A stretch of DNA of 24,207 bases from a virus: positions 1 through 24,207 of IMG/VR virus record IMGVR_UViG_3300025648_000568; one strand, 5' to 3'. This document shows positions 3,322 to 22,024 of the stretch, piece after piece. The position numbers and the translations under genes are program-made. The notes beneath the pieces were generated by a model. It had not been told where the DNA came from. It did no database searches and was given only the letters and a program-made list of their open reading frames with translations. How positions within the stretch are numbered: the first letter of the stretch is position 1; every line of letters starts with the position of its first letter.

Positions 3322-4647
3322 ATGCCAGTGTTCTATAACCAGCCTGCTTCCTTCGGTAATGCTACCGTTGAAGATACAGCGCGGTTCAACCAACTCCCGT
3401 TCTACCTTGTTCGTAATGAGGTAAAACAGTTCCCCACGTGGTCAGTCTTTGACCAGTTATACGGCGACATTGATTGGCAAGCGAATGAAGGTAACACTAT
3501 GAAAGGTGTTACTCCTCAGCGTTCTCCAGTCTCTCGCTCGTTCTTCCATCCGAACGCTATCACTACTGTCCCTAATAAGGATGTGTATCAAGTGACTGAA
3601 TCGGTTGAACAGGCCGTGCTTTATATGCACGACTATGAATCCTTCCAGTTCAACTTCCTTCCTTCGTTCACTGTGTTCTGGAAGAACTACTTGCAGTTTG
3701 CTAACACTGATATCGTTCGTCAGATTGCTATCAGTAATAACCAGTTCATCGAGACTATGATGTGGGAAGGTTCTCCTTACTACTACATCGCTGGTGTTGG
3801 TCTCCAGTATGGTGCTCCTACTGCTCTTGGTAACGATGCCGGAACTGCTGCTAACAGTAAGACGTCTGCTTGGCTTGTTGCTGTTACTCAAGGTACTGGT
3901 GGTGTTGCCGGTATCTCTACTACTGGTCTCCGTCTCCGTGACGTGTTCAATGCGTTCATGGCTCTTCAAGAAGACTTGGCTGCTCCTGCCTTTGATGGCA
4001 GTAAGAACATGCCTAAGGATAATGAAGGCTTGAAAGGTAAGTATGTTCTCTTAGTTCCGTCTGAGGACTTCCTTAACTTCTCCTTCGACCCCGACGTGTT
4101 GAACAAACTTCAAGGTCTCGCTCCTTGTGACTTGAACCTGTTGTTCAATGACTTCAAAGGTCTCCTGTTCGGGTTTATGACCTGCAAGATTAACAAGTAC
4201 CCTGTCCGTTACAATACGGCTGATGTGCTTGATAACGCTGGTAACGTCTTGTACGCGAAGGGTACTCCGGTTGCTCCTGAAATCTTCGATGCTACGGACA
4301 ACAAGTGGAAACCTAATCCGTACTACACTTCACGTATCACTGCTCCGAATACCATTACTTGGATTCTGGGTGCTGACCGCGCGAAGACTATCAAGGTTGG
4401 CCCTCCGCCGAAGGAGTTTGCTACCACCAACATGAGTGCTAAGAAGTTCTATTCTATGCGCTGGAATGGTGAAGTTCAGTTGACTGACCAAGTTCTCATC
4501 TTTGATGCGAACGGTACTCCGTCTCTCAACAACTATGGCAAACAACTTAAGTTCATCAGCGAGTTGACTCATGGTTATCTCGAAGGTGAACGGCGTCATG
4601 CCTTCCCGATTCTGTCGAAACGCACCCGTCCACAGAATGTTGTCTAA
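3322..4647 (+). CDS. Major capsid protein
   Basis: Encodes 441 residues with no signal peptide. Identification rests on position directly after the scaffold, size within the range of phage coat proteins, aromatic-rich globular composition, and a codon use clearly biased to C-ending codons (TTC, AAC, TAC) compared with neighbours, as expected for the most abundant product. I cannot assign it to a specific coat family from sequence alone; an HK97-type fold is the default inference. The leader contains AAAGAAAG about 9-16 bases before ATG and no classical Shine-Dalgarno sequence; the same AAAGAAAG recurs before the gene at 4682. The gene has its own upstream regulatory gap (promoter motif 3173-3189, hairpin 3247-3295), and the capsid plus 4682 unit is closed by the hairpin at 5201-5237. 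Confidence 0.7.
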   Translation: MPVFYNQPASFGNATVEDTARFNQLPFYLVRNEVKQFPTWSVFDQLYGDIDWQANEGNTMKGVTPQRSPVSRSFFHPNAITTVPNKDVYQVTESVEQAVLYMHDYESFQFNFLPSFTVFWKNYLQFANTDIVRQIAISNNQFIETMMWEGSPYYYIAGVGLQYGAPTALGNDAGTAANSKTSAWLVAVTQGTGGVAGISTTGLRLRDVFNAFMALQEDLAAPAFDGSKNMPKDNEGLKGKYVLLVPSEDFLNFSFDPDVLNKLQGLAPCDLNLLFNDFKGLLFGFMTCKINKYPVRYNTADVLDNAGNVLYAKGTPVAPEIFDATDNKWKPNPYYTSRITAPNTITWILGADRAKTIKVGPPPKEFATTNMSAKKFYSMRWNGEVQLTDQVLIFDANGTPSLNNYGKQLKFISELTHGYLEGERRHAFPILSKRTRPQNVV

Positions 4648-4681: not shown

Positions 4682-5188
4682 ATGAAAAAGTTAATCATCT
4701 CCCTCGCTGTTGCAATTGGACTCGGTAGTGTTGCACAAGCTCAGAACCTTACGTTCTCTGCGACTGTTGCTACTAACACCATGTCCTCTCTTGTGACTGG
4801 CCCGTTCAAAGTCATTCAGTTGGTTGTAACGTCTACTGGCAATGCCTCTGGCTATCTGGTTGATAGTTACACTAACTCGACTGTCTATACTAATGCTGCA
4901 TATACTAACATTGTTAGTTATGTCACTAACATGCCGGCTATCTACACCAATTACTTTGGTGTTCTTAGCACGAATGCTGACTACCTCGGCAATCGTAACG
5001 TGTTAGTTGATGTGACGAATAGTGTTGCTGCATCTACGAATAACTTGCCGTATGTTGCTGTGTCATGCACGACTACTCCTACTGTTGTGAATAACATGAA
5101 CACGGTATACAGTCGTGGTGTTTGGTTTACGAACACCTCTGCTACTGGCAATTCAGTCACAGTAACGGTGACTGGTATCCGTCAATAA
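4682..5188 (+). CDS. Secreted Thr/Asn-rich protein after the capsid
   Basis: Encodes 168 residues. It starts with a clear Sec signal peptide: basic MKK, hydrophobic core LIISLAVAIGLG, and an AQA cleavage site near residue 20. The mature part is beta-rich and full of repeated Y-T-N / V-T-N / S-T-N segments. No known domain is recognised. It follows the capsid gene after 34 bases, with the same AAAGAAAG leader, and the pair is closed by a strong hairpin at 5201-5237, so it is probably transcribed at capsid level. The slot usually holds a decoration or head protein, but a Sec signal is unexpected for a protein assembled in the cytoplasm. A periplasmic or outer-surface role late in infection (for example exclusion of other phages) is possible. 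Function unknown. Confidence 0.75.
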   Translation: MKKLIISLAVAIGLGSVAQAQNLTFSATVATNTMSSLVTGPFKVIQLVVTSTGNASGYLVDSYTNSTVYTNAAYTNIVSYVTNMPAIYTNYFGVLSTNADYLGNRNVLVDVTNSVAASTNNLPYVAVSCTTTPTVVNNMNTVYSRGVWFTNTSATGNSVTVTVTGIRQ

Positions 5189-5253: not shown

Positions 5254-5577
5254 ATGATTAGAACAATTGGAACTTGTGAAAAGAATATAACTCCAGTACC
5301 TGCTAATGCCATTGTAGTACCTGCTGGCGTCTCTAAAGAAGTCATACCTGATGGTTCCGGAAAACCTACTGAACGTGCTTATGCTACGATTCAGAATGTT
5401 GGAGCTAACATTGCTTATTATGCTTTTGGACAGACCTGTGATAATGTTAGTAACTTCCATGGTGTTCTTCCACAGTACTCTGCTGTTCCAATCCCCTCTG
5501 CTGACCAAGTGACTGTATTCAGTCCTGCTGGAACTACTATTGCTGTTACTATCTTCACTCGGGATGAAGGCATTTAA
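5254..5577 (+). CDS. Small beta-rich protein, possible virion accessory
   Basis: Encodes 107 residues from ATG 5254. This start is chosen over ATG 5218 because 5218 lies in the loop of the terminator-like hairpin, and because TTATTATG fits the start context used through the window. The sequence (RAYATIQNVGANIAYYAFG in the middle, then alternating polar and hydrophobic strands ending in TIFTRDEG) has the pattern of small all-beta virion proteins often found near phage head genes, in which an 'iqN.g...iyyafG' strand pair recurs. That likeness is from memory of such proteins, not an alignment. No signal peptide. No promoter is seen between the hairpin and the start, so expression may depend on read-through. 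Confidence 0.6.
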   Translation: MIRTIGTCEKNITPVPANAIVVPAGVSKEVIPDGSGKPTERAYATIQNVGANIAYYAFGQTCDNVSNFHGVLPQYSAVPIPSADQVTVFSPAGTTIAVTIFTRDEGI

Positions 5578-5580
5578 TCT

Positions 5581-7206
5581 ATGAAATTAACTCTTTTAGC
5601 TTTACTTGCTAGCAGTGGGCTAGTATTAGCTGGCCCTGTTCCTGTTGTATCTGGTGGTGGAGGTTCTAGCACGTTGCCGAGTTATGTGGTGACGAACGCG
5701 CCCCTTAACATTAACAACGGTGGCACGTTAACCAACTTAATGGCGACAAACCTTGTTGGCTCACTTCCAGTTGCATCGCTGCCGACTGGATTATCAACCA
5801 ATGCCTTATCCTACAACGCTTCATTTATACCATCGTTAATCGCTACCAACCCGCTAAAGCAATCAAACCTCTACATTGGGTATAATGGAACATATGTTAA
5901 CATGTATGGTGACTCAGTTATGATGGGAGCCCTGTCAGACCTACCATCACCAACTGGATTTGACCATTACTCATTCGGTGATTATGTCCGTGTCCTTTCA
6001 TCCTCTAACTACATGGCGGCTGGCTCTGGTTCCGCAATAGCGACAAACATCAACTGGGGCTGGCCCATTAGTGGTGGAAATGGATACACGCTTGACTACA
6101 TGTTTGGTGGCCAAAGCCTGACCAACGTGTCCCTTGCATATCAGGTTCTTATTGAGGCTGGGGTTGCCGACATTTTGATAGGCAACTGCAACTCTAAATT
6201 TCCCACTCCCGACCTTTATTATTACAGCCTAATCACAAATCTTGTCGCGCAGCAGCTAGTCAAATTTGGAAGGTCGACTAGAACAGTAATTTGCACACCC
6301 GTTGGTAGCCAGACAGCCAGCGCGTGGACCAATAATCATCCGTGGCTGTTCACTAACTTATTCACATTCATAAGGTCAGGTGTTCCACAGTTCAACCTAA
6401 CAAACCTTAATAATTACGCCGGAACCAATGCGGCTGGATTCGTAATCACCACCAATCTTGATACCTACGATAAATATGTCACTTATATCTACAATGTTCA
6501 AGTTGCGTTGTTAAAGTTTGCCGCAACCTACGGCGGGTCAAACTATGTTGACATAGCTCGTTTTGACAATATGCAGACTGCATATGGAGCATCTTCTCCC
6601 GATGGCTGGCATCCGAACACAGGGATGCAAGTCGAGTTCGGTAAGCGGGTTTATGATGCGTGGTGGAACTCCAAAAAGGATTACACGGAGGTTCCGATAC
6701 CACAAGGTTTCTTCTTGGTGAGCAATGGGTTTGGCCCCAATACTCTGTCACGAACCTTGCCAATCTCACAGATTCCTACCAATGTCGTGCCGTCCATCGC
6801 CTTCCAGCTACATGACCAGACCAACAGCTACACGGCGACCACGACCTATTCTGCCCTGACCAACTACACGACCTTGCAGAATATGAGGTCTGACATTTTT
6901 GGCGGTAATCTATCTGCTGGATACATCACGAATCTGGTGAATGGCACATACTTGATTTCATTCAACTGCTCTGTCCGGTTCGGAGCAAATAACACCGAAG
7001 CCATATTCACCGTCCTGACGAATGGTGTTGATGCTGGTATCGAAAGCTGGTGGGGTGGCTCTAATCCGGCCTCGGCTACCTCCGGCTCTGCCATCGGTGT
7101 CCTCTACCTTCCAGCCAACAGCACGATTTCGGTTGGTGTGAAAGTCCAGTCCGGCACCTTGAATATAACCAATGTCGCTGGCGGATTGATTGTGACGAAG
7201 CAATAA
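5581..7206 (+). CDS. Secreted SGNH/GDSL hydrolase with C1q-like C-terminus
   Basis: Encodes 541 residues. There is an N-terminal Sec signal (MKLTLLALLASSGLVLA, cut before GPV), a Gly/Ser and Thr-Asn-rich linker (about 25-95), then an SGNH hydrolase domain: block I GDS with nucleophile Ser112, block III GNCN (201-204), and block V DGWH with Asp341 and His344. Residues about 405-541 form a separate beta domain of C1q/TNF-like type (GTYLISFNCSVRF, then a Leu-Pro-Ala-Asn-Ser strand near the end), typical of phage and bacterial surface-binding tips. SGNH enzymes deacetylate or de-esterify glycans and lipids, so a surface-polysaccharide esterase is the likely role. After the first ~80 bases, base use becomes more GC-rich than the neighbours: 58% in the 60 bases from 6781 against 42% in the 60 from 5281. 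Confidence 0.8.
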   Translation: MKLTLLALLASSGLVLAGPVPVVSGGGGSSTLPSYVVTNAPLNINNGGTLTNLMATNLVGSLPVASLPTGLSTNALSYNASFIPSLIATNPLKQSNLYIGYNGTYVNMYGDSVMMGALSDLPSPTGFDHYSFGDYVRVLSSSNYMAAGSGSAIATNINWGWPISGGNGYTLDYMFGGQSLTNVSLAYQVLIEAGVADILIGNCNSKFPTPDLYYYSLITNLVAQQLVKFGRSTRTVICTPVGSQTASAWTNNHPWLFTNLFTFIRSGVPQFNLTNLNNYAGTNAAGFVITTNLDTYDKYVTYIYNVQVALLKFAATYGGSNYVDIARFDNMQTAYGASSPDGWHPNTGMQVEFGKRVYDAWWNSKKDYTEVPIPQGFFLVSNGFGPNTLSRTLPISQIPTNVVPSIAFQLHDQTNSYTATTTYSALTNYTTLQNMRSDIFGGNLSAGYITNLVNGTYLISFNCSVRFGANNTEAIFTVLTNGVDAGIESWWGGSNPASATSGSAIGVLYLPANSTISVGVKVQSGTLNITNVAGGLIVTKQ

Positions 7207-7243
7207 ACCTTGTTGTTATGCTAGAACTCTTCGCTAACTTGTT

Positions 7244-7253
7244 AAAGGCTACA
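7244..7253 (+). promoter_or_regulatory. Ribosome binding site deciding the start at 7254
   Basis: AAAGG (7244-7248) with a five-base spacer before ATG 7254. It favours this start over the in-frame ATG at 7218, which has no such sequence. It is one of few Shine-Dalgarno-like sites in the window. Confidence 0.5.
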
Positions 7254-7514
7254 ATGGAAAAGACAAACAAACATGGAAAGGAAAGCATAAACACACTCCT
7301 CTTGTTAGCTGTTCTTTACCTAGGTTATCAAGACCACTTGGCGATTGTGAGGAATACAGAGCAAACAACCGCACTTGCTCATGCGCTTAAGTGGAAGTTG
7401 AACATTAATGTCAACGAACAAAATGGTCGCCCTGTCAATGAAAGTAAACGGTATGATGCCTCTGACATATCGTTTGCAGAAAACAACACAGAGACAACAA
7501 AGAGAAAGAACTGA
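7254..7514 (+). CDS. Single-span membrane protein, possible i-spanin
   Basis: Encodes 86 residues from ATG 7254 (or 98 from 7218). A short basic N-terminus (MEKTNKHGKES) is followed by one hydrophobic segment (INTLLLLAVLYLGY, about residues 12-25) and a hydrophilic, Asn/Glu/Lys-rich tail of about 55 residues. This N-in/C-out layout fits inner-membrane spanins, and a lipoprotein gene lies two genes downstream (7739), as in two-component spanin pairs. A signal-anchor membrane protein of other function is equally possible; no family was recognised. The next gene starts four bases after this stop. Confidence 0.6.
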   Translation: MEKTNKHGKESINTLLLLAVLYLGYQDHLAIVRNTEQTTALAHALKWKLNINVNEQNGRPVNESKRYDASDISFAENNTETTKRKN

Positions 7515-7518
7515 TAGT

Positions 7519-7734
7519 ATGTTAATGAGTCTGTTAAAAAGCCAAACTGTTCGCAACTGGCTATTGCGTCGTCTAGCTACCGCTGCTGGTGCTACACTAG
7601 TGACTAGTGGCTTGTTGAACCAATCACAAGTAGCTGATGCTTCTGGTGCGTTGTTAGTGTTAGCATCTGTCGCCCACTCACTGTGGGAGAAACGTGACCA
7701 GATTAAACAAGAGATTGCTGACCTAACCAAATAA
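7519..7734 (+). CDS. Small two-span membrane protein, holin candidate
   Basis: Encodes 71 residues from ATG 7519 (a second ATG at 7525 would give 69). It has a basic N-terminus (KSQTVRNWLLRR), a first moderately hydrophobic helix (LATAAGATLVTSGLL), a short polar turn, a second helix (ASGALLVLASVAHSLW), and a charged C-terminus (EKRDQIKQEI). Small size, two Ala/Gly-rich helices and charged tail fit class II holins, which form the inner-membrane lesions that end infection. The open frame continues upstream to 7408, but that part overlaps the previous gene and reads as shadow. No endolysin gene is recognised in the window. Confidence 0.55.
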   Translation: MLMSLLKSQTVRNWLLRRLATAAGATLVTSGLLNQSQVADASGALLVLASVAHSLWEKRDQIKQEIADLTK

Positions 7735-7738
7735 CAAT

Positions 7739-8116
7739 ATGAAGAAACTCTTTATCATTCCGTTGCTAGTGTTGTGTGGTTGTGCCAACACTCAGATTAT
7801 CCAGAACTCTCATGTCTCTGGTGTTAAGACAAGTGCCGGAATTCCTATCCCGTTCTCTGGTGGCCAATCATTCTTGACTGTTAGCTTGGCCGCTGGTGAT
7901 ATCAAAGACAATGTAATTGTACAACCGACTAGCACTAACACGTTGAATGTCGGTGCTGTTACTATCGCACAGAACACTTATTCAACTGCTGGTGTCAATG
8001 GTAATGCTGGTACTAATAACTCTGCCGGTATTGCTACATTGCAACATGACCAGAACATCATTAGTACGACCGGTAGTGTCAATTCTACTAATGGTTCAGT
8101 GAACATCACTCACTAA
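7739..8116 (+). CDS. Lipoprotein, possible o-spanin or surface lipoprotein
   Basis: Encodes 125 residues. The start MKKLFIIPLLVLCGCAN is a lipoprotein signal with a lipobox at L-C-G-C (Cys15 expected to be lipidated). The mature part is small, Gly/Asn/Ser/Thr-rich and without charged coiled coils. Coming right after two small membrane proteins it completes a plausible holin/spanin cassette, with the lipid anchor in the outer membrane. Against that, it lacks the proline-rich or helical stretch of many o-spanins, so it might instead be a superinfection-exclusion or other surface lipoprotein. The start is five bases after the previous stop, in the context AACAATATG. Confidence 0.7.
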   Translation: MKKLFIIPLLVLCGCANTQIIQNSHVSGVKTSAGIPIPFSGGQSFLTVSLAAGDIKDNVIVQPTSTNTLNVGAVTIAQNTYSTAGVNGNAGTNNSAGIATLQHDQNIISTTGSVNSTNGSVNITH

Positions 8117-9357: not shown

Positions 9358-10485
9358 ATGAATTCAAATGACATTAATGTAGGCTTAGACCCTACTGCTT
9401 TTACTTCAATCACTGGTGCTCAGTTGGCGCAGATGGTTAATGGTGCTACACCTTCGTCTGACCGTGGTTTTGTCCTGCTTACTGTTGACCAAGGTGGTGT
9501 ACCAGTTATCCCTGATGCTGCTGGAACTCTAGCTTTCCAACGATATCTGTGGACTCGTATCTCACCAGCTACCAATTCTACCTCTGTCTATGTCTGGAAT
9601 CCTAACCAGTCATACGTGTTAGCATACCCTGACAGCTTTGGCAATCCAGTATTGGTGAATACTAACTGGAATCCTATTACATTAGCTAACATTCCTGCTG
9701 GCTCAATTCAAGGGTATCAAATAGCTAACGCTACAATTCCGGCAACTGCACTCGCTGGCGGAATTAGCTTAGCACAGATATCGGGGTCTGGTGCTTTATT
9801 GACAACTGCTACCACACCTACTGATGCTGATATCACTAACACCAGTTCGTTTGCAGCTGGCCTTACTATCTCTCCTAGTGCTGTAACGTCTAACAAGATT
9901 GCAGCTGGTGGTGTACAGACTGTTAATATCGGCGCTAACCAAGTGACTCCTGCTAAGATAAGTGTATCTGGCGCTGTCAATACGTACATGACAGACCTCA
10001 CTGGTGCACTACCGGCTTGGACTGCGATTCCTAACATCTTAACTGGATTGGCTAATCCTAGCAATACCGGAACTGATGATGGTAAAGTAGTTGTCGTTGA
10101 CAGTGGTGCTGACGGTAAGTTTAAATATGTTGCTGGCAGTATACCTACTAAGGCTACAATTGATAATCAAGCCATACCTGCTGCTGGTGGTACTAAAGCT
10201 ATTGCTCATGGTTTCACTGGTATACCTCACTCTGTTCGTGTAGTCTTGCATTGTACTGCTAACGATGCTTCTAGTGCCTATGTTGCTGGTGATGAAATTG
10301 ATATTGTTTCTCTCGGTAATACTAACTATAGTTGGGCTATTTGGGTTGATGCTAACTACATCAATGTTGTTAGGAATAACCTTGCAACCAGTATCTATGT
10401 TCTCAAAAAATCTGATGGTACTCTTGTTACTGTATCTTCAGCAGCTAACTTCACGTTGAAAGCCTACGCAGTCTACTTCGCATAA
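9358..10485 (+). CDS. Tail-fibre-like protein with C-terminal tip domain
   Basis: Encodes 375 residues. The N-terminal ~115 residues look like a virion-attachment part. Residues about 120-210 contain imperfect A-N/A-G-[IG]-[IV]-x-[PTS] repeats (for example IPAGSIQGYQIANATIPATA, then SPSAVTSNKIAAGGV) typical of phage fibre shafts. The last ~100 residues (AHGFTGIPHSVRVVLHC, AGDEIDIVS, then alternating strands) have the pattern of a compact beta tip found at the end of many phage fibres, likely the receptor- or glycan-contacting end. Fibre assignment is inferred from repeats and composition. Confidence 0.6.
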   Translation: MNSNDINVGLDPTAFTSITGAQLAQMVNGATPSSDRGFVLLTVDQGGVPVIPDAAGTLAFQRYLWTRISPATNSTSVYVWNPNQSYVLAYPDSFGNPVLVNTNWNPITLANIPAGSIQGYQIANATIPATALAGGISLAQISGSGALLTTATTPTDADITNTSSFAAGLTISPSAVTSNKIAAGGVQTVNIGANQVTPAKISVSGAVNTYMTDLTGALPAWTAIPNILTGLANPSNTGTDDGKVVVVDSGADGKFKYVAGSIPTKATIDNQAIPAAGGTKAIAHGFTGIPHSVRVVLHCTANDASSAYVAGDEIDIVSLGNTNYSWAIWVDANYINVVRNNLATSIYVLKKSDGTLVTVSSAANFTLKAYAVYFA

Positions 10486-15024: not shown

Positions 15025-16344
15025 ATGGGACAAATACGAGAATTACTTGGTGAAGGTCTGTATGGGAGTGCCCCACAGCTAGACCAAAACTATAGACCCC
15101 TTACTGTAACAGAAGGCGGTGACTACGTTGACCAGCATGGTAATGTTGTACCTGATGAACAGGCTGCGGCAGCATCAGCTAATCGTTACCGAGTGCCCGG
15201 ATTCTTCGAGAGAATCTTAGCTCCTCAAGTTGCTAGAGAAGAGACCCTTGGCAACAATGCAGCTAAAATAGCTGACTATAATCAACAGATTCTCCATGAG
15301 ACTGCTATTGAAGAGGCACGTAGAAATCAGCCTTACTTACCGACAGGTTTGACTAATAGTGCAGAAGAGCAGTATGCTAAGTTTGGGAATAACCATGTCA
15401 GCGACTCACAAGCTGTTCCAGAGATTAAAGCTAAAGCTGCTATTGCTACAGGGTATTTGCCTAGCATAGGTGCAACTGATACATCTACACAAAAGACTCT
15501 ATCAGACATAGGCAATACTACAGCTACTTTTAATCAAGGCAGACTCCCCACTTTACAGGCAACTACGACACAATTAGATAAAAATGCTTTAGAAGAAGCT
15601 AACATGACTCCTGCTGAGCTTGCTCTTAAGCGTAGACAGACAGAAGGAGAAGCCAGTACACTAGACCAGAAGATTGCCAATACAGTTGCTGAATTAAAGC
15701 GACTTGGCTATGATACAGATACAGCGTTACATATAGCGCGAGTACGCAATAGTATGTTACCTCAGCAAGAGGAGACTGCTAGAAACATAATTGGTAAAGA
15801 CTTGTTCAGTTCTAGGAGAATGGAAGCACCATCCAGTCTATATGACATAGGACTTCATGGAGACTCTGCTTCACTACAAAGAGAGCCAATGGCTGTAACA
15901 CCTGCTATGATGAAACTAGCAGGGATTGATAGCATGACAGGCAAGCCAGGTCAAACTACTACACTCAGTTCTGGCAGAACTGTAAATGTTATGCCCTCAG
16001 AGTCATTGCAAGAGTCCTCTGCACCTACAGACAGGCCTCCAATTAATGATACCTTTAGGGGTGCCGGCGCTTCTGGAGATTGGAGTGATGGCTCGAAAGC
16101 TACTGTCAATGACAAAGGTGCAATTGTTGGTGATAAAGAAGTTGACAATCTAGTGGAAGCAATGAACAGAGAACACGCTCAACATGGCAATTCTCAAGTG
16201 TATCTTAGGATGCATCAACAGTTAGAGCAACTACACAATGATAAGATTGTTAAGTTGCAAGAGTTGAAACAAGCATTAAGTAGAACTAATCCTAATTCTA
16301 GACAGGGTGCTAACATTCGTCAAGCAATTGCTCAATTACAATAA
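15025..16344 (+). CDS. Internal virion (ejection) protein candidate
   Basis: Encodes 439 residues, mostly helical and rich in Ala, Gln, Thr and charged residues, with heptad-like stretches at about 175-235 (TPAELALKRRQTEGEASTLD, IANTVAELKRL) and at the C-terminus (MHQQLEQLHNDKIVKLQELK). No signal, no membrane segment and no enzymatic motif seen. It occupies the T7 gp15 position directly before the giant gp16-position gene, so an ejection-tube or core component is the best inference. The start ATTATGGG is 13 bases after the previous stop, without a Shine-Dalgarno sequence. The next gene starts one base after its stop. Confidence 0.6.
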   Translation: MGQIRELLGEGLYGSAPQLDQNYRPLTVTEGGDYVDQHGNVVPDEQAAAASANRYRVPGFFERILAPQVAREETLGNNAAKIADYNQQILHETAIEEARRNQPYLPTGLTNSAEEQYAKFGNNHVSDSQAVPEIKAKAAIATGYLPSIGATDTSTQKTLSDIGNTTATFNQGRLPTLQATTTQLDKNALEEANMTPAELALKRRQTEGEASTLDQKIANTVAELKRLGYDTDTALHIARVRNSMLPQQEETARNIIGKDLFSSRRMEAPSSLYDIGLHGDSASLQREPMAVTPAMMKLAGIDSMTGKPGQTTTLSSGRTVNVMPSESLQESSAPTDRPPINDTFRGAGASGDWSDGSKATVNDKGAIVGDKEVDNLVEAMNREHAQHGNSQVYLRMHQQLEQLHNDKIVKLQELKQALSRTNPNSRQGANIRQAIAQLQ

Positions 16345-16345
16345 T

Positions 16346-19300
16346 ATGGCTTTATCAGACTTTACTCCAGAAGAGATTGCAGAGATGCAGTCTAAAGGCA
16401 TAGACCCTAGAACAGCATCTTTAGTTGAAACACCTAAGCATGAGGATGAGAAACAGTCTATCCCTCGTGCTATCCTTAACCGCCTCAAAGCTGGTGCTGG
16501 TGGTATAGTTGGTGGTGGTGCTGGTGCTTTAGGTGGTGCTGAGTTAGGTGCTATAGCTGGTGCTCCTCTTGCTATCCCTACTGCCGGTATCTCTGAAATT
16601 GTTGGCCCACTAATAGGTGGTATCGCTGGTGGTATGGCTGGCGGTGCAGCTGGTGAAGCTGGACAGCGTGCTCTCCTCAATCCGGAACTTCAAGCCTCAC
16701 TAGAGGCACAAGCCCAACAGGCACAAGAGCAACACCCGTATGTCTCTGCTGCAACTGACATTACTGCTGGTGCTCTAGCATCTGGTGGTAGATTCTCTCC
16801 AACGACACCGTTGAAAGCTCTCATGGGTGACAAACGTGCATTAGCGAATGTGGCTATGCAAGCTGGTGTGTTACCTGCTATTAATACAGGCATTGACCTA
16901 GCGCAGGGTAAAGATATCAGTGGCGGGGATATACTCAAACAAGCTGTTGGTGGTGCTCTATTTGCTGAACCTTCTGCTCTTGGTAGAAAGTTTGGAGGTC
17001 TACGAGAACCAGCTGCTGAGCCTAATAACAAAGGAGAACAGGATAACTATGAAGGCACTACTATTCCTCCTGATATTTCTCCTTATACTCAAAAAGGGGA
17101 ACAAGGATACGCGATAGATGATGCTATCGTTAAGAAGCACTTCATCGCTGCTAATCCTAAACCTGAACCTACCGGTAACTATACTGACGACGCTATTGCG
17201 ATGACAGCATGGAAGCGGAAAGTTGGTATACCTATTGATGAGATGCGTGGTGCTCTACATGAGAAGTTCATAGCGTCTAAAGCTATGGGTGTTGAACAGT
17301 CTCAAGAGCCTTTGAAGATGGCCAAGGAAGGGGATGAAGGAGTTGTTACTAAGAATGAAGCTGACCAAGTATCAACTACTGGAGACTCATTCCAGTCATT
17401 TAAGACTATGGCTCAAGAGCATCAAGAAGCTCAAGAAGCTCTAGCTAAGAAAGAGACTGAAGAAGCACAACCATTGAAAGATGGTGAACTTCCTAAGCCA
17501 GTCTCCGAGAATACTCTACGAATTACTAAGGACTCGTTCTTACCTAATGATGTTAACAGACCGGAAGTTAGACCTGAGGTTAACACCGTTCCGCTGACGC
17601 CAGACCAAGCTAATGAGGCTCGTAAGTTGATGACTCAGAACAGGGGTCAAGGTGATAAGAGAACTGAAGCTGAGCGTATTCAGGACGAGATGGAGGGCAA
17701 TGGTGCTAGATACTCTGAATCCCGCATTGACCCCAAAGACCTAGCTCGCTACAACGAACTCCAACAGCAACAGCAAGCTATGGAGAAAGCTGGTACTCAT
17801 ATCAATGACACCGGACTACATCCTGACTTCGTCAAAAACTGGCATGAGATTGAAGCGTTGAAGAATAAATACGGTGGCACTAAGGTTAAGAGTGAAGGTT
17901 CCGGAATGAACAGAGCAGTACCATTCAATGAGCATCAAGAATACTGGATGACACCTGAGGGTACACTAATGCCAATTAAAGCTGGTATGTCTGGAGGCCA
18001 TGCTGAATTTGCAAAAGAATACTTGAAGAACTATAAAGATGTTCCTGAAAGAGGTAGACTTGAGGCTCCATATAGTTACATGTTTGCAAAGAAGTATGCT
18101 AGAGTAGCTAGAAGTGGTAATGATTTATTAGTTGAGAATCCAAGAGGTCTTACCAATGCTCAAAAAAGAGAGCTTAAGAATGTTGGTATTGAGCGTAATC
18201 TTAATGTTACACAATATGATAACTCTGTTAAAGACTTCAAACCAAGAGTTATTCATGATATCTCGTCTTATTCCGAAGGTAGGGTACCTACCAAATTAGC
18301 CTATCAAACGGAGTCAACTCCTGTCGCTGTTCGTGACCATATTAACACCGGTAGAGCTACTACTGGTTCTGTGATGAAGATGCTTGCAGAGTCACATGGT
18401 CACCCTATGCAGCCTCTCGCTAAGTGGTTGTGGCAGAATATGGATTCTTCCTCTAGGAAAGTCAAGTGGAACTCTTCACCTCTGTTAGACCGTTCTCACT
18501 ATGACCCAACTGGAGATGAAGTCAACATCCACACTCTCGATGTGAACCATGCTCCTACACTCATGGAAGAAGCTATTCATTCCATGACGTCAGCGAAGTT
18601 GCCTAAGGAGTGGAACGGACTAAGGGGTGCTGAGTTGAAGTCCGCGATGGATAAGTTCTCTAAGGAGAATCCTAATCACCCATTGAGAAGACTGGTTGAT
18701 GCTTATTCCGCTACCGCTGAACATCTAGGAATGACTAATAGACTTTTTGGTAATGAAGGGACTGCTGGTAATCCAGATGAAGTTAAATCTTCTGAGCATC
18801 CGGGCCGAAGTTATGCCTACGCCATGGGTGACTTACATGAGTTCATTGCTCACGCTTTTAAGAACAAAGAGTTTCAAGAGATGCTCAACAAGATACCTGC
18901 TAATGATGGAACTCCTAGGACTATGTGGCAGAGAATTGTTGATGCTATATCTCATCTGCTTGGTATGCCTGTCAAGGCTACTTTTATGCTTGACCATGTC
19001 TTGAGGCATAGTAGTGAGTTGATTTATCGGGAGCGAGGCGGTGAAGGTGGTAACAGTATCTCCAATGCTAGTCACTACGGTCTAGTCCCCCAAGAAGGTA
19101 AGCTAGGTCGTCAAGGATGGTACACATCCAAAGACCCTGCTTTGTCTGCTCTGTCAGTACATATCTCTGACGACGCTATCCACTTGGTCAATGTAGAAGC
19201 TGCTGAGAAAGGTAAGGGCGCTGGTACTGCTCTACTTGAGAAGTTAAAAGCTATGTCTGACCAGACTGGTAAACCTATTAAGTTGACAGCTGAGTCCTTG

Positions 19301-22024
19301 GATAAGAGTGTCAATCCACGCTTAGAGAAGTTCTATGAGAAGAATGGTTTTACTAGAGATGTGGATGGGCAGAATGACTTTACTTATAAGCCTAAGGAGA
19401 GTGTTAAGACAGAAGAAACTCCAGAAGAACGTCGTCTAAGAGAGCTTAAGGAAGATAGAGAAGAAGCAGCTAGTCTCCACAATGGTGGTGCTGCAGAAGA
19501 GTATCGTCGTGTCAAAGATAAGACTGAGAAATTTGACAAGATGCGTCAAGCTGTACACGGTGCTGAGATGACTCCAGAGGAGAGGATGAAGCAGAACCGT
19601 TCCCGCCCTGTCAATCAAGAAGTTCCGTCAACGACTGGCAATGACTTCGGCAAGTTCAAGAAGATGTTCGGTAGCGTGCTGGACAACCTGCGCGCTGTGC
19701 CTCATGAAGGTGCTAAGGTGTTGGCTGACGCATACCAGAGAGCCTTAGACTACAGACAACACCTGACTGGCAAGTACACTAACCCTATCGTAGAAGCTGG
19801 CAAAGGTCTGACGCATAAGGATATGCAAGACCTTAACAGGGCTATTGAGCAGCACATGACCAAGAAGATTGCTATGCCTGAGGGACTGAGTCCTAAGGCT
19901 AAGGAGTTCTTCAAACTAGCTATAAGCAAATATAAAGAGTTCGGTGATGAACATATCGCTAACAATATACCTATCAAAGACAGCAATGGTAACATGCGTT
20001 TGATGGTTAAGAAGGACTTCAAGTTGCCTACTATGGCTAACCAGAACATTGAGAATATGTTTAGGAAGGGTGAAGATGTAGAAGGGATGCAGAAGGCTAA
20101 GAAGGAATACATTGACTACAATAAGAATGTCTTAGGCAAGACTCAAGAAGAAGCTGAGTCTATGTTCCATGACTGGAAGAAGTCTGTTACTAATAGCTTT
20201 GGAGGTTCCGGCATTTCACACCAAGACTTCTTTAATGCTATCCGTAAGTCTATGGGTGACCCACTCCCGCCTACTTGGAGAGAGCAGAATCCAGTTAGGA
20301 ATATGCAACGGTACTTCGACCGTGCTGGACTGGCTATGGCTCACTATGCTAAAGTAGAGTCTAACCACAAAGCTATGGCTGCTCTTGGTGCTACTAAGGA
20401 TGCTTGGGGTAACGCTATACCACAGTATCCTGAAGGTGCAGTCGCTAGTAAGTATGCTCAGAGTGCTGTTGGACAGTTCCACAGTACACCTAAAGATACT
20501 ACTATGCAGACTGAGGAAGGTGCAAGTGGATTGGCAACTGCCCTATTCATTGCATCGCCGGGATTGGAAGTACATAAAGTGGGGTCTAACTTCATCAAAG
20601 CTGCACTATACGCTCCTAACCCTTATGTCGCTGTCAGAGCTATTGGCAACGGTATCATGCATATGCGCGAAGGTTGGACTCATGCTAAGGAGGGTGGACT
20701 CATTAAGTTGACAGCTGCTTCTGCTGCTGACATGTTTGACAACTCTCTGAATACTCACCAGAGGATGGCTGGTATCGCTCGACTAGTTAGGAACATCTCA
20801 ACACTAGGTGAACTGACTACTAAAGCGAACGCAGCTTATCAACAAGCCTACTTCGAACACTTACTCCCAACACTCGTCAACCGTGCTAATGCTGGTGATG
20901 CTAATGCTACAAGGATGATGAAGCATTGGGATACAGATTACACGCGAGGGAAACAATATTCCGCTGACGCAATGAAGCAACTAGCTTCTACTGCTGCATC
21001 ATATGTCCACGGTACTGGTGATATTCGCCAGATGCCAGCGTGGATGATGAATGAGGGTGAGATATCTGGGTTCATGCAGCTGGCTCACTGGTCAGTTGCA
21101 CAGACTAATAACTTCATGCACGACGTGTGGTTGCCTGCTAAGAAGGGCAATCTGACACCACTAGTGACTGGTCTATTTGGCTCTGCTGTTGGTGGTTATA
21201 TTATCAAAGAACTTCGTGAAGAGATACAAGGGAAGAAAGGACAGATACCATCTCTGAATGAGATAGCTTCGTCCGAAGGAGGGTTGAAAGGTAACATACC
21301 ATTGCTAGCATACAATGCTATTGCTGGTATGCAATATGCTGGATTTGGTGGCTTGTTCTCACAAGTAGCTAAGTACCCGTTCGATGCTGCTTACAAGAAC
21401 TCATTACAGTCTGCTACGTTCCCGCTCGATGAAGTTGCGTCAGATATAGCTGAGACTGCACATCAAGTTGCTACTGCAATGGCTAACGACCCTAACGTAA
21501 ATTATGTAGACCTAGCTGCTCAAGTAGCACAACACGTATTTGGTTCTAACATCAAGCTGGCGTCTATTGCCTTGAATCAGGGAATCAATAATGGATATGT
21601 GACTGGTATGCCAGCTGAAAAGAAGAAGCTAGCTGACAAGCTTGGAGAACTAAGAAGGTTCGATATGGTTACTGGACTACCTTATAATGAAGTGGACGCT
21701 GGTAGTAACCCGTTCATGAACATCGAACAGAGGAAGTTTAAGATGGAACAAGACCCTGCGAAAGCAGTTGCTATGGTTGTTCCTATGATACATAACATCA
21801 TGCTCAAGTACGGGAACAACCCTGATGTTATGATGGAGAAGATAAAGGCATTGAAGCAGAACTCATATGCTACTATGCCATCACTGGAGAATACTCCTTT
21901 GTCATTCTTTAAGTATATCAACTACTTGAACAAAGAAGAAGGTGAAGGTAAAGCGCAGGAAGCACTACGTGACTACCTCCACCACAAGGTCATTAACGAA
22001 GCTAAGGCCAGTACTATACCGTAA
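16346..22024 (+). CDS. Giant polyvalent ejection protein, degenerate zincin plus GNAT
   Basis: Encodes 1,892 residues from ATG 16346 (AATAATATG, one base after the upstream stop; the frame is open to 16307 but overlaps the previous gene). Order: Gly/Ala-rich hydrophobic region about 48-110, likely membrane-active; a disordered charged part to about 520; a region about 530-635 with a W..P.G...GH..FA pattern seen in phage polyvalent proteins; a zincin-like domain about 720-860 where the expected HExxH is EEAIH (741-745), with HEFIAH at 831-836; a GNAT domain about 918-1015 with acetyl-CoA loop KGKGAG (955-960) and FYEKNGF; then a long helical part to the end with further hydrophobic segments. 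T7 gp16-position proteins form the inner ejection channel, so this product probably enters the host with the DNA. Enzymatic roles are inferred. Confidence 0.75.
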   Translation: MALSDFTPEEIAEMQSKGIDPRTASLVETPKHEDEKQSIPRAILNRLKAGAGGIVGGGAGALGGAELGAIAGAPLAIPTAGISEIVGPLIGGIAGGMAGGAAGEAGQRALLNPELQASLEAQAQQAQEQHPYVSAATDITAGALASGGRFSPTTPLKALMGDKRALANVAMQAGVLPAINTGIDLAQGKDISGGDILKQAVGGALFAEPSALGRKFGGLREPAAEPNNKGEQDNYEGTTIPPDISPYTQKGEQGYAIDDAIVKKHFIAANPKPEPTGNYTDDAIAMTAWKRKVGIPIDEMRGALHEKFIASKAMGVEQSQEPLKMAKEGDEGVVTKNEADQVSTTGDSFQSFKTMAQEHQEAQEALAKKETEEAQPLKDGELPKPVSENTLRITKDSFLPNDVNRPEVRPEVNTVPLTPDQANEARKLMTQNRGQGDKRTEAERIQDEMEGNGARYSESRIDPKDLARYNELQQQQQAMEKAGTHINDTGLHPDFVKNWHEIEALKNKYGGTKVKSEGSGMNRAVPFNEHQEYWMTPEGTLMPIKAGMSGGHAEFAKEYLKNYKDVPERGRLEAPYSYMFAKKYARVARSGNDLLVENPRGLTNAQKRELKNVGIERNLNVTQYDNSVKDFKPRVIHDISSYSEGRVPTKLAYQTESTPVAVRDHINTGRATTGSVMKMLAESHGHPMQPLAKWLWQNMDSSSRKVKWNSSPLLDRSHYDPTGDEVNIHTLDVNHAPTLMEEAIHSMTSAKLPKEWNGLRGAELKSAMDKFSKENPNHPLRRLVDAYSATAEHLGMTNRLFGNEGTAGNPDEVKSSEHPGRSYAYAMGDLHEFIAHAFKNKEFQEMLNKIPANDGTPRTMWQRIVDAISHLLGMPVKATFMLDHVLRHSSELIYRERGGEGGNSISNASHYGLVPQEGKLGRQGWYTSKDPALSALSVHISDDAIHLVNVEAAEKGKGAGTALLEKLKAMSDQTGKPIKLTAESLDKSVNPRLEKFYEKNGFTRDVDGQNDFTYKPKESVKTEETPEERRLRELKEDREEAASLHNGGAAEEYRRVKDKTEKFDKMRQAVHGAEMTPEERMKQNRSRPVNQEVPSTTGNDFGKFKKMFGSVLDNLRAVPHEGAKVLADAYQRALDYRQHLTGKYTNPIVEAGKGLTHKDMQDLNRAIEQHMTKKIAMPEGLSPKAKEFFKLAISKYKEFGDEHIANNIPIKDSNGNMRLMVKKDFKLPTMANQNIENMFRKGEDVEGMQKAKKEYIDYNKNVLGKTQEEAESMFHDWKKSVTNSFGGSGISHQDFFNAIRKSMGDPLPPTWREQNPVRNMQRYFDRAGLAMAHYAKVESNHKAMAALGATKDAWGNAIPQYPEGAVASKYAQSAVGQFHSTPKDTTMQTEEGASGLATALFIASPGLEVHKVGSNFIKAALYAPNPYVAVRAIGNGIMHMREGWTHAKEGGLIKLTAASAADMFDNSLNTHQRMAGIARLVRNISTLGELTTKANAAYQQAYFEHLLPTLVNRANAGDANATRMMKHWDTDYTRGKQYSADAMKQLASTAASYVHGTGDIRQMPAWMMNEGEISGFMQLAHWSVAQTNNFMHDVWLPAKKGNLTPLVTGLFGSAVGGYIIKELREEIQGKKGQIPSLNEIASSEGGLKGNIPLLAYNAIAGMQYAGFGGLFSQVAKYPFDAAYKNSLQSATFPLDEVASDIAETAHQVATAMANDPNVNYVDLAAQVAQHVFGSNIKLASIALNQGINNGYVTGMPAEKKKLADKLGELRRFDMVTGLPYNEVDAGSNPFMNIEQRKFKMEQDPAKAVAMVVPMIHNIMLKYGNNPDVMMEKIKALKQNSYATMPSLENTPLSFFKYINYLNKEEGEGKAQEALRDYLHHKVINEAKASTIP

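Follow-up and report, generated by a model that had tools for sequence, protein, structure and literature searches.

The window analysed here is the whole 24,207-nucleotide stretch covering positions 1 to 24,207 of the IMG/VR virus record IMGVR_UViG_3300025648_000568. Its plus strand carries an open reading frame at 5581-7206, with an ATG start, that encodes a protein of 541 aa opening with MKLTLLALLASSGLVLAGPVP (Table 1). Upstream lie the genes for an unannotated protein of 547 aa and for the major capsid protein (MCP, 3322-4647), which was recognised from its place in the gene order and from its conservation in related phages; downstream come a holin gene (PF23987) and genes for a predicted lipoprotein and for tail proteins.

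Table 1. Coordinates of the genes and protein regions discussed (L numbers denote related contigs)
Feature	Position	Strand	Remarks
MCP-adjacent protein, 168 aa, predicted signal peptide MKKLIISLAVAIGLGSVAQA ahead of QN and single jelly roll, turret-base-like by its model	4682..5188	+	
Small conserved protein, 107 aa, without signal peptide	5254..5577	+	Has homologues in 23 contigs, immediately ahead of the spike gene; frame opens at 5122, ATG chosen by match to relatives
541-aa protein: predicted signal peptide, linker, predicted SGNH domain, C1q-like C-terminal domain	5581..7206	+	
Predicted Sec signal peptide, aa 1-17, cut after LVLA	5581..5631	+	Heuristic score 6.6; homologue's signal differs in sequence
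Predicted start of the mature protein, motif PVPVVSGGGG, then linker LTNLMATNLVGSLPVASLPTG rich in TN	5632..5862	+	DNA similarity to L002 at 5662-5699 and 5716-5805; by eye, relatives have a P-x-ISGGG-like motif after their signals
Predicted SGNH hydrolase domain	5863..6690	+	GDS, G-x-T-x-D, GN and PDGWH kept at 36% identity; GDSL enzymes align at block V
C1q/TNF-like beta domain, probable trimerising tip	6691..7203	+	86% identical in L016; fold by eye only
Small protein, one membrane segment predicted	7218..7514	+	Inside the 89% DNA block, moves with tip and holin
Holin, Pam3 gp28 family	7519..7734	+	PF23987 E=3.3e-9, 37.1 bits, cut-off 27; frame open from 7408, start probably at 7519
Predicted lipoprotein (MKKLFIIPLLVLCGC)	7739..8116	+	Lipobox-bearing homologues in 6 contigs
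Fibre-anchor family protein, signal-less here	9358..10485	+	In L044-L047, homologues have a signal prefixed precisely

The independent IMG/VR contig L001 is 99.88% identical to the window across 12.2 kb and encodes an identical 541-aa protein. A single clear homologue, with 57% identity, is encoded on L002/L016, and only these two family members are known. The homologue retains a signal peptide (of other sequence), GDS, G-x-T-x-D, GN and PDGWH; compared module by module, conservation is seen in the linker and the C-terminal domain, and the middle domain has diverged to 36% identity. The 541-aa protein gave nothing significant against Pfam, NCBIfam, PHROG and PDB sequences, relatives were found neither in isolated phages nor in GTDB genomes, and an AF2 model of the whole protein, built on an alignment of one homologue, reached a pLDDT of 27.

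The lineage appears to be uncultured and podovirus-like, and its MCP and portal-position protein have no relatives in isolated phages. The sole MCP match on a genome contig was L024 (JACTVG010000014.1), 14.9 kb of this phage lineage lying in a Methanoregulaceae archaeon bin; since the MCP is absent from 294 other genomes of that archaeal phylum, we find mis-binning more probable than an archaeal host. A search of plasmids for a host link gave no match, and Verrucomicrobiota are our guess at the host, from sequence style. An isolated verrucomicrobial siphophage, P8625, was reported to have no signal peptides by SignalP (PMC4642752).

A first-pass annotation, made from the letters of the window, had described the 541-aa protein as an exported SGNH esterase with a C1q-like tip. 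The residues that it named, Ser112 in GDS (codon 5914-5916), GNCN at 201-204, and Asp341 and His344 in PDGWH (codons 6601-6603 and 6610-6612), are present at exactly those positions. Block I (GDS 110-112, with the nucleophile Ser), block II (G168, T170 and D172, of the G-x-x-G-x-T type) and the DxxH motif of block V, as PDGWH, are kept in the homologue. For block III the description holds in part: G201-N202 is conserved, but the homologue has Thr in place of N204. The canonical block III, GxND, may instead be GVAD 194-197, with Asn replaced by Ala, which lies in an EAGVADI stretch identical in both proteins. When the protein was compared by hhalign with 10 GDSL-type sequences, only block V aligned, in register with archaeal GDSL enzymes, at a probability of 2% and a single-comparison P=0.024 versus 0.6-0.85 for reversed and unrelated controls. 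The sole match of an SGNH-domain profile to PDB sequences was to 1zmb, an acetylxylan-esterase-related SGNH enzyme, at the DGxH block and with a non-significant E=0.98, and neither PF13472 nor PF03629 had a match in the window record or in 30 records of related phages.

These motifs make it very probable that the middle domain has an SGNH fold, and we consider it likely that the protein is an active esterase; an SGNH esterase carrying a trimer-type tip is a plausible description. The domain might alternatively be an inactive glycan binder, a proposal compatible with any location of the protein and one that draws on the lack of a significant profile match and on the possible loss of the block III Asn in GVAD. 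We regard it as unlikely, given that GDS, G-x-T-x-D and PDGWH are all retained at 36% identity and that block V is in the correct register with GDSL enzymes.

The C1q-like assignment of the C-terminal domain was made by eye, has no profile match, and finds its strands only in the low-confidence AF2 model (pLDDT 27). At the DNA level, positions 6700-7747 of the window share 89% identity with L002/L016 and L003, a block that covers the C-terminal domain of the predicted spike, the small membrane protein and the holin gene. Since the MCPs of the window phage and of the L002/L016 phage are only 36% identical, tip and lysis genes have been exchanged recently between diverged phages.

The N-terminus of the 541-aa protein, MKLTLLALLASSGLVLA followed by GPVP, displays n-, h- and c-regions and small residues at -3 and -1. 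We compared it with 38 related contigs, mostly of about 50 kb and gathered with the MCP as anchor, using our own simple n/h/c-region predictor, which is a heuristic, and limiting counts to genes of at least 150 aa. In the slot that runs from the MCP to the tail-tube gene, this predictor assigned signal peptides to 120 of 218 genes, as against none of 250 elsewhere on the same contigs (upstream genes 0/152, MCP 0/38, downstream genes 0/60; Fisher P=3.5e-51 with no correction for relatedness). Shuffled N-termini of signal-bearing proteins exceeded the threshold in 8% of cases; single calls thus carry some error, but the contrast between the slot and elsewhere does not. The first gene after the MCP bears a textbook signal in 34 of the 38 contigs. 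An export signal is the rule for appendage-type genes at this position across the lineage, not an oddity of one gene.

Among the signal-bearing slot proteins of at least about 195 aa are collagen repeats, LamG, right-handed beta helices, pectate-lyase-like domains, melibiase and GH43, and signal-bearing slot proteins match PHROG tail-fibre families. Two motifs, P-x-ISGGG-like and FxFNDxxFMxQG-like, recur by eye just past the predicted cleavage site; the FNDxxFMxQG motif, sought after signals across viral contigs, was found in only two contigs, both already in our set. The slot thus resembles a design in which a common N-terminal address precedes swappable glycan-active passengers, the SGNH domain being the predicted passenger in the window. 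Since the small protein at 5254-5577 has no signal, the cassette is not exported uniformly. Twin-arginine-type signals (RRKFL, NRRSFM) occur on slot proteins of L020 (9968-10705) and L019 (16948-17439), hinting that Tat may be used besides Sec. The appendage/lysis slot also holds receiver-like response-regulator proteins of the LVDDD / LVIDDS type (L020 11379-11855, L029 10800-11201, L045 14663-15142).

Three features independent of the predictor also favour export. Gln occupies the +1 position of 38 of the 129 predicted cleavage sites and accounts for 3.0% of mature residues, and the predictor ignored +1 except to exclude Pro. The fibre-anchor family is signal-less in most contigs and signal-bearing in L044-L047, where the start after cleavage aligns with the Met of the signal-less relatives, i.e., the signal is exactly prefixed. 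Finally, mature signal-bearing proteins contain 1103 TN dipeptides versus 413 expected from composition (NT, 337), TN exceeding NT in 108 of 125 such proteins and the reverse holding in 4, while signal-less proteins of the same slot have no such bias (228 versus 212). Within the fibre-anchor family the counts are 33 versus 15 for the four signal-bearing proteins and 60 versus 65 for the signal-less ones. The SGNH protein itself has 19 TN versus 5.1 expected, 13 of them aligned with those of its homologue. The bias possibly reflects an export-linked modification or a host-secretome style; classical N-glycosylation was ruled out as its cause, N-x-S/T sequons not being enriched. The signal peptide called by the first-pass annotation is therefore backed by the slot-wide counts, Gln at +1, the prefixing in the fibre family and the TN bias, and we are confident that the predicted spike is exported by Sec and cleaved. 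By eye, a possible second fibre N-terminal module occurs with a signal in L047 (12896-13612) and without one in L043 (11975-13081).

The AF2 model of the MCP-adjacent protein, built on an alignment of 30 sequences, has a pLDDT of 89 and comprises the signal helix and one jelly roll. Its best PDB match was 8qpg_TD, from the HFTV1 turret, with Z 9.6 across 99 residues, a small margin over the unrelated jelly rolls PirA (8.8) and nucleophosmin (8.4); with Foldseek alone, no PDB entry reached E<=0.001. Chain TD of 8QPG must be the turret base, as it has 114 residues whereas the head has more than 400 aa. We take the likeness as a modest lead, by fold only. In HFTV1, the turret-base hexamer (gp30) carries a trimeric head (gp31) with a polysaccharide-deacetylase-like domain, and the N-termini of the head touch the base (PDB 8QPG, PMC12494034). 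An exported base-like jelly roll encoded near a predicted trimeric glycan deacylase would be a striking functional parallel to this arrangement, not a proof of membership. HFTV1 differs in that its head has a zinc deacetylase fold rather than SGNH, in that the base chain as deposited opens with residue 2 and gives no sign of signal cleavage, and in that it infects an archaeon; no sequence similarity was found.

Our preferred, still tentative, reading is that 5581-7206 encodes a Sec-exported SGNH-esterase spike, part of a variable appendage cassette between the capsid and tail genes, and that this spike is added to the virion during lysis or afterwards; for virion association taken by itself, the prospects seem to us somewhat better than even. 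The spike would be made late in infection and pass through SecYEG, whereupon signal peptidase would cut after LVLA and expose the conserved N-terminus PVPVVSGGGG. It would then trimerise in the periplasm via its C1q-like tip and de-acylate an ester-substituted surface glycan. Lysis would be triggered by the holin cassette directly downstream, and the exposed N-terminus could dock to the virion, most simply onto the exported turret-base-like protein encoded beside the capsid gene. Comparison shows the signal peptides, their restriction to the slot, the cleavage-site features, the conserved domain layout and, as a model, the jelly roll of the neighbour; we infer esterase activity, trimerisation, a place in the virion and attachment to it when the cell lyses or later. 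Because the signals mark the whole slot, including the turret-base-like jelly roll and fibre-type proteins, the protein may be exported and a virion appendage at once. More broadly, we tentatively suggest, with some reserve, that the lineage exports capsid and tail appendages via Sec, to be processed and possibly modified at Thr-Asn sites outside the cytoplasm, and finishes its virions with them only at or after lysis. We know of no tailed phage that adds Sec-exported appendages to its virions after their export, which counts against the spike reading. Also against it stand the HFTV1 base chain that opens with residue 2, the narrow Z margin of the turret match, the possible loss of the block III Asn, the low pLDDT of the SGNH protein's model, a family of two known members and the signal-less second protein of the slot.

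A possible but more doubtful explanation, close to an idea of the first-pass annotation, is that the protein is a non-virion enzyme or adhesin acting periplasmically or at the surface of the infected cell and of cells nearby, where it might modify surface glycans, mask receptors against superinfection or keep progeny off debris. In that annotation the exported enzyme could remove O-acetyl groups from the cell's own envelope polysaccharide, which would prevent progeny from adhering to debris or block superinfection. The signals are textbook ones, the gene clusters with holin and lipoprotein genes, many passengers of the slot are glycan-binding or glycan-cutting domains, and the TN bias follows export, all of which would suit such a role. 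Harder to reconcile with it are the matches of signal-bearing proteins to tail-fibre families, the occurrence of one fibre family both with and without signal, and the fact that the slot begins with a turret-base-like protein beside the capsid gene.

The protein might also be a lysis accessory, an exported esterase that dismantles the outer envelope or capsule at lysis and is functionally like mycobacteriophage LysB. Sec signals have been described on phage endolysins (PMC6116005), and the tip end, the membrane protein and the holin gene travel as one block of 89% DNA identity. At the same place, however, the passengers of relatives are collagen, lectin-like or beta-helix ones and include no esterase, and the fibre-type linker and C1q-like tip fit poorly with this function, which we judge improbable. 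The likeness to the Sec-signal endolysins, such as fOg44 Lys44, and to LysB lies in an exported phage enzyme and in an esterase beside a lysis cassette, and the difference in the fibre-like architecture and in slot passengers of the relatives that are not lytic enzymes. Least probable of all is that the protein is an ordinary spike of the virion, into which its hydrophobic N-terminus would insert as an anchor that stays uncleaved: the fibre-like architecture would allow it and export is a prediction, but the small -3/-1 residues, the unselected Gln at +1, the lipobox lipoproteins of the same slot, the precise prefixing in the fibre-anchor family and the export-linked TN bias argue against it, and the same family-wide evidence disfavours the fallback of the first-pass annotation, a hydrophobic N-terminus that is not a working signal.

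The Sec-exported spike that we prefer would share with the O-deacetylases and depolymerases of phage tailspikes and tail fibres a glycan-active middle between a conserved N-terminal module and a receptor-tip-like module, as well as domain swaps between phages. It departs from them in the cleavable Sec signal in front and in a gene placed beside the capsid gene rather than the tail fibres. Virion proteins do pass through Sec in inoviruses, whose coat proteins carry signal sequences; there assembly takes place in the membrane, whereas the phage considered here is a tailed one with capsid and holin. Tailed phages are taken to assemble wholly in the cytoplasm, and a partial search of the literature turned up no account of tailed phages whose appendages carry signals systematically. 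Systematic export signals on appendage genes would mean either a two-compartment assembly of the virion, which to our knowledge has no precedent in tailed phages, or the export of a large arsenal of fibre-like proteins active on glycans. For uncultured phages, either outcome would alter the interpretation of receptor-binding repertoires, of superinfection control and of virion maturation, and the fibre family that occurs with and without signal constitutes a natural experiment that renders the question testable.

Further along the window, 16307-22024 encodes a protein of 1905 aa, probably of the internal virion/ejection type, in which a GNAT acetyltransferase-like domain (PF13673, E=4e-5) is embedded.
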